Source of the DNA: Pseudanabaena sp. Chao 1811
Lineage (GTDB): Bacteria > Cyanobacteriota > Cyanobacteriia > Pseudanabaenales > Pseudanabaenaceae
DNA length: 64,000 nt
Assembly: GCF_027942295.1 (NCBI RefSeq)
Contig: NZ_CP101416.1
Span: forward strand, 2,900,501 to 2,964,500
Direction of reading: 5' to 3'
Below are positions 38,522 through 53,553 of the stretch, piece by piece; within the stretch, counting starts at the first letter, position 1; each line of letters opens with the position of its first letter. The position numbers and the translations under genes are program-made. Under the pieces are notes generated by a model. The model saw only the letters and a program-made list of their open reading frames with translations. It made no database searches and had not been told where the DNA came from.

Positions 38522-39676
38522 TTAGGGAATCAAGGGAATATTTTGGCTCCGCGTAAATTGTTCATAGGCTGAGACTAAGGTTAGGCTATATAAGCTTTGA
38601 AATTTGTAGTCTTTGTAAGCATCGGGCACTTTGGCAAATTTCTCTAGGACTTGCTCCTTAGTCAAATTTTGTGCTTTCCATTGAAATGCTAAATTTTCTA
38701 ACCAACTAAAGTAAGTTTGCTGATCTTTCACCGCAGTCACATCGGTAACTTCTCCTTCTCCGGGCACCACTTTCGCATTGGGAAAATTCGTAATTAAGCG
38801 AGCTAAGCTACCTTGCCACTTACGAATATCACTATCACCAGTGTAGGGAATTCGCTTATGAAAAACCATATCCCCAGTAAATAAAACCTTTGCATCAGGT
38901 ACATAAACGACCAAATCAGTGCCAGCCGCATGACCATCTACAGGCTCAATTTTGACTTGGCGATCGCCTAACCAAAGATCGAGGGTGACTTGACTATTAA
39001 GGACTAAATTAGGAGGTGTAAAGCCCTTTGTTCCATCTTTACCCATGTAAATATATTCACGAATCGCCCCACGTCCAATCACAGGAATACCCAAATTGAT
39101 AAAAGTGGCATTGCCTCCAGTTCGCGCAAAATGATAATGCGTATTTAAGACATACTTAATGGGTTTATCTGTGAGTGATTTCACCGTTGTGATCATCAAT
39201 TCCGCCAATTGAGGTGAATGAAAGGGATCGATGACCAAAACACTATCACTACCAATGACAATCCCCCCATTACAAATTGCCACTGTTGGTATTACGGGTG
39301 GGATATCAGCACTAGCAACTAGGGCATAAACTCCTTGCCCCACCTTTTGTAATTTTAAGCCAGCATCTTGTAAGCCAATTTTTTTAACCACTGGCAATGG
39401 TTTATTTTTCGGTGTTGGCTTTGGTGTTTGCGTAGGTGCTGCTTTAGGTACTTGTTTTTGCGTTTGAGGTTGAGATGTGGCAGGAAGCACACCATCGCCC
39501 ATCGACACCATGATGGCAGCGATCGCTGTTAAGTAGCTGGGCATAGTTAAAACCCAGAACCAAAAACTGTGGCGCACGCGCAGCGTGCGCCACAGTTTTT
39601 GGGGTTTTATATTTAATTGCGTCCAGTTACTTAGTACTAAAGCTATATAGCTTGGTTTTTTGAAATTTTTTAGCAT
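38522..39676 (-). CDS. degenerate metallo-beta-lactamase-fold protein with in-frame MITE in its signal peptide
   Basis: 384 residues, a close paralogue of the adjacent 340-aa protein. The metal motif HxHxDH has become HYHFAR (Asp to Ala, His to Arg), and PGHGD has become PGEGE, so three ligand positions are lost, while FTGDMVF and DGHAAGTDL remain. A 102-bp insertion (a 100-bp MITE plus TA) adds 34 residues inside the signal sequence: without it the N-terminus reads MLKNFKKPSYIALVL then TAIAAIM, the same length as the paralogue's. A pseudoenzyme or decaying duplicate is likely; export is uncertain. Confidence 0.9.
   Translation of the reverse strand: MLKNFKKPSYIALVLSNWTQLNIKPQKLWRTLRVRHSFWFWVLTMPSYLTAIAAIMVSMGDGVLPATSQPQTQKQVPKAAPTQTPKPTPKNKPLPVVKKIGLQDAGLKLQKVGQGVYALVASADIPPVIPTVAICNGGIVIGSDSVLVIDPFHSPQLAELMITTVKSLTDKPIKYVLNTHYHFARTGGNATFINLGIPVIGRGAIREYIYMGKDGTKGFTPPNLVLNSQVTLDLWLGDRQVKIEPVDGHAAGTDLVVYVPDAKVLFTGDMVFHKRIPYTGDSDIRKWQGSLARLITNFPNAKVVPGEGEVTDVTAVKDQQTYFSWLENLAFQWKAQNLTKEQVLEKFAKVPDAYKDYKFQSLYSLTLVSAYEQFTRSQNIPLIP
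39532..39631. mobile_element. MITE family B, copy 1 (100 bp), inside a coding sequence
   Basis: Ends AGTAGCTGGGC and AGTAACTGGAC (other strand), flanked by TA on each side (39530-39531, 39632-39633). The centre is the palindrome GTGGCGCACGC...GCGTGCGCCAC. Its sequence closely matches the copy at 53402-53501, also 100 bp. TA duplication is typical of Tc1/mariner/IS630-class transposition. It adds exactly 34 codons to the gene that hosts it. Confidence 0.85.
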
Positions 39677-39751
39677 AATGCTTTCTTAGAACTAGATCAT
39701 GAAGCTCTACAAAACAATAAAGAGCGTCTTTTAGGAACGCTCTTTATTAGT

Positions 39752-40774
39752 TTAAGGAATTAAGGGAATAGTTCTGCTACGAGTAAATTGCTCATAGGCG
39801 GACTCTAAATTTAGAGGATAGATACCTTTAAATTTGTAGTCTTTGTAAGCATCAGGTACTTTCGCGAATTTCTCCAATACTTGCTCCTTTGTTAAAATCT
39901 GAGCTTTCCATTCCAAAGCTGTGCGCTCTAACCAACTGAAATAAGCCTGCTGAGCTTGTAAACCAGTTACATCAGTGACATCACCATGTCCGGGGACAAC
40001 CTTCGCTTCAGGGAAAGTGGCAATCAAGCGATACAAGCTGCCTTGCCATTGACGAATATCGCTATCGCCAGTGTAGGGAATTCGCTTATTGAAAACCATA
40101 TCGCCTGTAAATAGGACTTTGGCATCGGGAACATAGGCAACCAGATCCGTACCCGCCGAATGTCCATCGACACGTTCAATGCGGACTTGGCGATCGCCTA
40201 ACCAAATATCAGTCTGGCTATTAACAATCACCGTTGGTGGGGTAATGCCATTAGTATTATTTTTTCCGCTCTGGATATATTCACGAATTACACCACGTCC
40301 AATCACAGGAATATTTTGCTTTACAAAGGCAACGTTACCGCCTGTATGGTCAAAGTGATAATGGGTATTCAAAACATACTTGATTGGCTTATCTGTCAAG
40401 GATTTTACTGTCGCAATCAATAGTTCAGCTAAATCTGAGGTTTGAAATGGGTCAATCACCAATACACTCTCGCTACCGATAACAATCCCACCATTGGCGA
40501 TCGCGACCGCAGGACTCGCAGGTGGGAAATCAGTACTAGCAATCAGTGCATATACACCTTGAGCAACCTCTTGTAACTGTAAACCAGCATTTTGCAAACT
40601 AATAGTTTGAAGTGGTGCTTCCGCAGGTTTTTGGGCTTGCTTTTGAACTTGATTTTGTGACTGATTTTGAGCTACCACAGGCTCCCAACTTTGCCCAATT
40701 GTCATTGACATGATGGCAGCGATCGCCGCAAGGGCAAAGGCAAGAAGGTGTTTAAGCTTTAGCTTTTTCAGCAT
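39752..40774 (-). CDS. metallo-beta-lactamase-fold hydrolase, secreted
   Basis: 340 residues with a clean signal peptide (about 1-37; KHLLAFALAAIAAIMSM). Metal ligands intact: THYHFDHTGG, DGHSAGTDL, FTGDMVF and PGHGDVTD. It belongs to the quinoprotein-relay/SoxH-like periplasmic metallo-beta-lactamase group; substrate unknown. It is the functional-looking copy of a tandem duplication with the gene at 38522-39676. Confidence 0.88.
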   Translation of the reverse strand: MLKKLKLKHLLAFALAAIAAIMSMTIGQSWEPVVAQNQSQNQVQKQAQKPAEAPLQTISLQNAGLQLQEVAQGVYALIASTDFPPASPAVAIANGGIVIGSESVLVIDPFQTSDLAELLIATVKSLTDKPIKYVLNTHYHFDHTGGNVAFVKQNIPVIGRGVIREYIQSGKNNTNGITPPTVIVNSQTDIWLGDRQVRIERVDGHSAGTDLVAYVPDAKVLFTGDMVFNKRIPYTGDSDIRQWQGSLYRLIATFPEAKVVPGHGDVTDVTGLQAQQAYFSWLERTALEWKAQILTKEQVLEKFAKVPDAYKDYKFKGIYPLNLESAYEQFTRSRTIPLIP

Positions 40775-40944: not shown

Positions 40945-41043
40945 GTAATACCAAAACTAAAAATGGCGTAGCCATTTTTAGTTTTGGTATTACTTGGTAA
41001 GCAATAAAATAAGGGAGGTGCTACACCTCCCTTATTTTATTGC
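40945..41043. repeat. two near-perfect palindromes in intergenic DNA
   Basis: Hairpin 1, arms GTAATACCAAAACTAAAAA.. with loop GTA (40945-40993, 23-bp arms); hairpin 2, arms GCAATAAAATAAGGGAGGTG with loop CTA (41001-41043, 20-bp arms). They lie between the metallo-beta-lactamase gene's promoter and the rpsJ terminator. Confidence 0.8.
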
Positions 41044-41056
41044 TTTGATGAGAAAA

Positions 41057-53366: not shown

Positions 53367-53401
53367 ATGATGGATAGAACGAATCGCCACTCATCATTAT
53401 A

Positions 53402-53501
53402 AGTAGGTGGGCGCAATTAAATATAAAACCCCAAAACCTGTGGCGCACGCGCAGCGTGCGCCACAGGTTTTGGCTCTGATTTTTAATTATGCCCAGCTAC
53501 T
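53402..53501. mobile_element. MITE family B, copy 2 (100 bp)
   Basis: Ends AGTAGGTGGGCGC and AGTAGCTGGGC (other strand), flanked by TA (53400-53401, 53502-53503). Same length and near-identical sequence to copy 1, with the central GTGGCGCACGC palindrome. Confidence 0.85.
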
Positions 53502-53553
53502 TATTTATGACAAAATATTCAGTAAGCTGCAAAATATCAAAACCCTTTAGATT

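Follow-up and report, generated by a model that had tools for sequence, protein, structure and literature searches.

Results

A MITE lies in frame within one of two tandem MBL-fold genes

The window, that is, the whole stretch of 64,000 nucleotides that was analysed (G000:C1:2900501-2964500), comes from a 4.73-Mb one-contig Pseudanabaena genome, here called G000. Two tandem genes on the minus strand both match Lactamase_B in a profile search: an MBL-fold pseudoenzyme gene of 384 codons (38522-39676; PF00753, E = 1.5e-18) and a canonical paralogue of 340 codons (39752-40774) that has the motifs HYHFDH and PGHGD and an unbroken signal-peptide region. Between them, on the same strand, is a terminator-like hairpin (39715-39749), recognised by a consensus match only. 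The pseudoenzyme gene carries a palindromic MITE of 100 bp (39532-39631, minus strand) that codes for residues 16-49 (SNWTQLNIKPQKLWRTLRVRHSFWFWVLTMPSYL). The two halves of a duplicated TA target flank the element (39530-39531 and 39632-39633); with both TAs it occupies 39530-39633, and genomic matches elsewhere mostly span query positions 11-114. The 100 bp and one TA make 102 bp, so the gene has gained exactly 34 codons, in frame. When we excised the MITE in silico, the two flanks joined as MLKNFKKPSYIALVL followed by TAIAAIM, in agreement with the preliminary description of this DNA. An inner palindrome of 43 nt (39560-39602) forms the hairpin of the MITE, whose predicted RNA fold in the mRNA sense is -53.2 kcal/mol.

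Further repeats occur in the window. A second copy of the same MITE lies at 53400-53503, where an ORF scan found no frame across the joined site. Two more inverted repeats (AAAACTAAAAATGGC.. and CAATAAAATAAGGGAGG..) were seen by eye upstream of the canonical paralogue, at ~40948-41046; these are perhaps other repeat families or terminators.

The pseudoenzyme keeps metal site 1 and has lost site 2

In the general MBL scheme, site 1 consists of H180, H182 and H249 with the bridging D269, and site 2 of the positions D184, H185 and H307. At residues 180-185 the pseudoenzyme reads HYHFAR (39122-39139, minus strand for this and the following residues), in which H180 and H182 are kept and A184 and R185 replace the site-2 Asp and His. 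H249 (38930-38932) and D269 (38870-38872) are retained, and in PGEGE (residues 305-309; 38750-38764) E307 replaces the site-2 His; the D-to-E change at position 309 presumably falls at no MBL ligand position. Dinuclear MBL hydrolases require D, H and H at site 2, where this protein has A184, R185 and E307. The three changed ligand positions listed in the preliminary description (HYHFAR/PGEGE for HYHFDH/PGHGD) were correct. Its term "metal-site-deficient" is too broad, since it holds for site 2 alone; the four ligands of site 1 do not vary in any of the 30 proteins aligned.

The same state is common among relatives. In the best 80 of 593 confirmed relatives, which were drawn with patterns from this protein and do not amount to a census, a motif script found that 68 lack the same site-2 ligands (66 VR/PGRG and 2 VR/PGAG) and that the other 12 have DH/PGHG. 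The MBL domain of the pseudoenzyme is predicted confidently and matches MBL structures, the best solved-structure match by sequence and by fold being 8d2z, an HYHAVR/PGRG form. The site-2-less subfamily that includes this structure (from Burkholderia cenocepacia) lacks the same three ligands, has an Arg at the same position and keeps site 1 intact, but it has V and R where the pseudoenzyme has A and E. Judged from these motifs, site-2 loss with an Arg in place of the His of the D-H pair is recurrent. The MBL-fold subfamily to which the 68 relatives belong (among them L068 and L070-L072) is large and mostly proteobacterial; it keeps site 1 and carries V-R and PG(R/A)G at the site-2 positions. 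Membership of the quinoprotein relay zinc metallohydrolases (TIGR04558/TIGR04559), which gave the best NCBIfam scores, was rejected, as 105.9 and 117.3 bits are below the cut-offs of 300 and 280.

A second carrier and an insertion-free relative

We found a homologue in 25 of 26 Pseudanabaena genomes searched, the remaining genome being 76% complete. There was one homologue in 22 of them and two in the other three (G000, G020, and G021), where the additional gene always has the HYHFAR motif. The pattern NTHYHxAR, whose fixed residues would let variants escape, retrieved these three genomes and no others out of 388 cyanobacterial ones. All three share a block that runs from the pseudoenzyme gene into the genes after it, which by eye encode an M23 peptidase and a prepilin peptidase; the 15.7 kb of G023 that we examined lack this block.

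In G020 the gene recurs with an identical insertion site and identical junctions (locus L032), at 94% identity and in a 387-codon open frame, and in both genomes a TA stands on either side of the MITE. The in-frame gain of 34 codons from a 100-bp element and one TA, as first described, is thereby borne out, and an assembly error at 39530-39633, which had been raised at the same time, is very unlikely. The pseudoenzyme of G021, by comparison, has 343 residues and no element, with a single TA at the orthologous site, in GGTTTAACTGCG. Most simply, the insertion took place in the common ancestor of G000 and G020; a precise later loss of the element from G021 is a possible alternative to an empty site there. 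If the insertion was inherited from that ancestor, then every difference between G000 and G020 postdates it, and gene transfer between the two, if it occurred, would blur the dating of changes relative to the insertion.

Site-2 ligands are missing from the pseudoenzymes of all three genomes, that of G021 reading PGEGA. Because the same changes are present in insertion-free G021, the ligand losses would by parsimony be older than the MITE insertion. The comparison of orthologues suggested earlier has thus put the two events in order, and the losses and the insertion are not one decay process.

In a phylogenetic tree whose bootstrap had not yet settled, all pseudoenzymes group together (support 93/100), and the stem of this clade has a length of 0.39 changes per column. 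The canonical proteins of the same genomes make up a separate clade (99/96) that does not include it, and the wider cyanobacterial node has only 90/89; therefore, either the duplication is older than the canonical clade or the gene was transferred in. Since the pseudoenzyme branches among cyanobacterial HYHFDH proteins, with moderate support, its site-2 loss apparently arose independently of the VR/PGRG subfamily.

The MITE family and its IS630 relatives

The ends of the MITE read TAAGTAGCT or close to it. G000 has at least 71 matches on both strands (40 scored of 150 candidates), and the MITE peptide found a match at E ≤ 0.001 in all 26 Pseudanabaena genomes, weakly in G001 and G005. We examined 132 copies (52 from G000, 40 from G020 and 40 from G021), which were the best-scoring or first-listed ones and include some low-scoring copies with approximate ends. 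Eighty are exactly 104 nt long with both TAs, equivalent to an insert of 102, and insert length is a multiple of three in 91 of the 132. In 30 of the 80 full-length copies, including this site in its two species, the frame that this gene uses is open; another frame on the same strand is open in 4 copies, and a frame on the opposite strand in 1.

The search for a parent covered 50 loci, corresponding to 51 of 79 DDE_3 matches. G020 has a full-length IS630-family element of 1109 bp with a DDE_3 transposase and MITE-like ends, TAAGTAGGTAGGCAGAATTAAATATAAG and TAAGTAGTTAGGCAGAAATAAATATAAA (L355), as well as DDE_3-bearing IS630-family elements of 1123-1124 bp with MITE-like ends TAAGTAGGTA.ACCAAAG and TAAGTAGCTAGGCATAAG (L352-L354). 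None of the loci examined in G000 held a full-length element with MITE-like ends; a loose pair in L341 has unlike ends. The TA target and the full-length elements with matching ends in G020 support the assignment of the MITE to the IS630 (Tc1/mariner) group, in line with its first labelling as Tc1/mariner-like. The commonest DDE_3 family (22 matches in G000 and 12 in G021) was rejected as the parent, since its ends, TACAGCC..TTGAG, are unlike those of the MITE (10 G000 and 8 G021 copies compared). Another MITE subfamily has the same TAAGTA ends and a different hairpin core (CCCGCTACGCGGG), for example at 946188-946290 in G000 and 1800088-1800191 in G021.

In an ORF scan of the 132 copies, this site, in its two species, was the only one at which the element is readable inside a gene with a homology-anchored upstream start. 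Removal of the copy leaves an ORF across the join at 16 further sites, some of which may be gene interruptions. We took the ORFs that cross L229 and L283, of 55 and 80 aa, to be spurious. At L273 (G021), L237 (G020), and L258 (G020), a stop-free frame that begins 2-8 codons before the element runs from it into 207, 110, and 106 downstream codons, respectively; we take these elements to be extragenic, just upstream of genes with their own starts. L273 (824164-824267) lies directly upstream of a gene that appears by eye to be peroxiredoxin-like, and its 250-codon frame through the element could be misread as an N-terminal extension. Among the peptide matches listed, two stop-free frames exceed 150 codons, namely this gene and L273.

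The downstream domain is under purifying selection

We calculated dN/dS by the NG86 method, taking the MBL domain from residue 101 on. Between G000 and G020 the domain shows 32 synonymous changes over 191 sites and 6 nonsynonymous changes over 661, a dN/dS of 0.048 (95% CI 0.014-0.100; Fisher p = 1.5e-16); between G000 and G021 the ratio is 0.087. The canonical paralogue is held more tightly than the pseudoenzyme (0.010 and 0.020). The codons of the element (0.60; CI 0.13-1.87) and the linker that follows it (0.68) are both indistinguishable from neutral. Over the whole gene, 384 codons are open in both G000 and G020, with 63 substitutions (40 synonymous and 23 nonsynonymous) and no stop or frameshift. 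Given this constraint on the domain, it must still be made, downstream of an inserted sequence that shows no visible constraint. With the insertion present in two genomes, these values uphold the "retained pseudoenzyme with an altered N-terminus" of the preliminary description.

Conservation of the insert itself proves nothing, because other orthologous copies are about equally conserved: this copy has 0.067 mismatches per base between G000 and G020, and two others have 0.038 and 0.082. Of the seven differences within the MITE, two match each other across the hairpin arms and the other five lie at the hairpin centre. We dropped the idea that protein-level selection had spared the outer arms, where none of the differences fall; the pairs L019/L261 and L205/L237 have almost the same pattern. 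L019 and L261 differ by a flip of the hairpin centre, by one further mismatch and by an overhang at an end that is uncertain. The differences of L205/L237 lie mainly inside the hairpin, apart from a 7-base gap near one end; by the ORF scan L019 is intergenic and L205/L237 adjoins an ORF. Across the 80 full-length copies the hairpin arms co-vary, one pair being C-G in 51, G-C in 19, and A-T in 7. Because the differences sit in the hairpin, as they mainly do in the other shared copies, and the arms co-vary across the family, the amino acids encoded there seem to be partly steered by hairpin correction at the DNA level. More generally, in the inner hairpin of this family the arms change together and the centre is flipped or replaced between orthologous copies (L001/L227 and L019/L261), as if the hairpin templated its own repair.

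The element encodes a basic and then hydrophobic peptide

The MITE insertion splits the old hydrophobic core, IALVLTAIAAIMVSM. Every one of the 30 open copies, the pair at this site among them, encodes a peptide whose residues 1-23 have a net charge of +4 to +6 and whose residues 24-34 have a mean hydropathy of +0.94 to +1.86. Because the usual open frame of the element thus gives a basic and then a hydrophobic peptide, the signal was probably rebuilt by the MITE. The longest stretch free of K, R, D and E in the first 75 residues is that of residues 36-60 (25 residues) in both G000 and G020, preceded by a net charge of +8 and +7, respectively. The 19-residue maximum hydropathy of the inserted forms is 1.58-1.59, versus 1.86-2.56 in the 14 canonical proteins compared; it is 2.00 in G021 and 2.05 for the joined empty site of G000. 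From this lower peak and the uncharged stretch behind a strong positive charge, a longer and weaker export signal is to be expected. In Sec signal peptides, an n-region of 35 residues is unusual. The part of the old core upstream of the element has gained a charge in G020 (IALVL to IDLVL), and the downstream hydrophobic stretch has been kept. G000 and G020 have the same putative cleavage region, LPATSQ, for which G021 has LPAASQ. In the structure model, residues 1-60 have a pLDDT under 50 and are unreliable.

Discussion

We consider it probable, though well short of certain, that a MITE insertion was kept, that the signal was rebuilt from it and that a site-2-less domain has been retained by selection. 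An IS630-group MITE would have landed in the signal-peptide region of an MBL-fold paralogue that was presumably site-2-less already, its TA target being positions 2-3 of an nTA codon. Since the MITE contributes 102 bp, and since the gene reads it in the frame that is open most often across the family, the reading frame survived. Read in this frame, the element would give a basic and then hydrophobic stretch that joins the surviving half of the old hydrophobic core, so that, at the start of the protein, a basic n-region and then a hydrophobic segment would still precede the old cleavage region. The protein most likely continues to reach the periplasm or lumen, exported by a longer and weaker signal. 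With its predicted fold, its intact site 1 and the selection on its domain, the pseudoenzyme is most likely a one-metal protein with a binding role or an altered hydrolytic activity, and it may be kept in this form as a partner of its canonical neighbour.

The N-terminus could be read in two other ways, both of which we think unlikely. Translation might start inside the element, at GTG 34 or ATG 45, both of which G000 and G020 have in frame; with such a start, the element would supply a new 5' end and a shorter signal peptide, and residues 1-33 or 1-44 could go untranslated, their codons serving as leader RNA. From GTG 34 the G000 product would begin VRHSFWFWVLTMPSYLTAIAAIM, a compact signal-peptide-like start, and most repeats in N-terminal coding regions may, according to PMC3733652, in fact be extragenic and misannotated. 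However, inspection by eye showed nothing like AGGAGG immediately before either codon (a GGG ~8 nt ahead of ATG 45 comes closest), GTG 34 sits within the hairpin, and the upstream start MLKN(F) is homologous to that of G021 and of the canonical gene (MLKK). Codons 1-10 are identical in G000 and G020, a weak point given the low baseline divergence. The other reading, to which we likewise give a low probability, is that the extended segment stays uncleaved and serves as a signal anchor, which would hold the protein at the membrane and so change its location. The 25 uncharged residues after a net charge of +7 or +8, and the long n-region, would suit an anchor, but the putative cleavage region is unchanged between G000 and G020 and close to that of G021, and the hydropathy is modest for a membrane anchor.

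A decaying pseudogene held open by chance, the other outcome offered in the preliminary description, is refuted by the domain dN/dS of 0.048 in G000/G020 (CI 0.014-0.100), and the 0.087 of G000/G021 points the same way. The long stem of the pseudoenzyme clade and the near-neutral codons of element and linker would fit decay; against this, 384 codons have stayed open in two genomes through 63 substitutions, and we give the idea hardly any probability.

Beyond the retained and rebuilt signal that we prefer, a wider reading is possible but doubtful. The usual frame of the MITE may be a portable signal-peptide-like module (basic and then hydrophobic, in an insert of 102), able to replace half of an export signal and be kept. 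Here it would have rebuilt the signal of a one-metal MBL protein whose independently evolved site-2 loss, with an Arg as in the large proteobacterial subfamily, might hint at a non-classical activity shared by site-2-less MBL folds.

Several known repeats resemble this element in part. The cyanobacterial MITEs Nezha, which is IS630-derived, and those of Anabaena are likewise small and of high copy number, with terminal repeats and a TA target, a likeness of general features; what sets this copy apart is that it forms readable sequence within a conserved gene of two species. GTAG-tagged REPs mobilised by RAYT are hairpins of 20-40 nt, whereas this element measures 104 nt with inverted ends and a TA on both sides, although GTAG does occur in its ends. 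The nearest precedent is given by the Rickettsia palindromic elements (RPEs), which according to PMC10969869 measure ~150 bp and, like the MITE here, are palindromic, mobile and found in frame inside protein-coding genes. However, RPEs occur in many unrelated genes, and here it is one site among 132 copies from three genomes. RPEs also carry CGTC at one end (PMC3733652), a tag absent from this MITE, which has TA flanks and IS630-type ends. Intragenic RPEs, MITEs and REPs are already known (PMC10969869, PMC3733652), and an in-frame MITE insertion kept in a gene is rare, though with precedent. Searching the literature by title and abstract, we found no account of this insertion or of 8d2z; within that literature, and as far as we know, what is new is the setting in a signal peptide, the IS630 family from cyanobacteria and the partner protein that lacks site 2.

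This locus gives a datable case, outside Rickettsia, of a bacterial MITE that has turned into readable sequence of a gene under purifying selection, with both an empty-site relative and a second carrier. It makes testable the idea that a transposon-encoded stretch may act as an export signal, and it brings into view a large, conserved set of MBL-fold proteins in which site 1 is kept and site 2 is missing.
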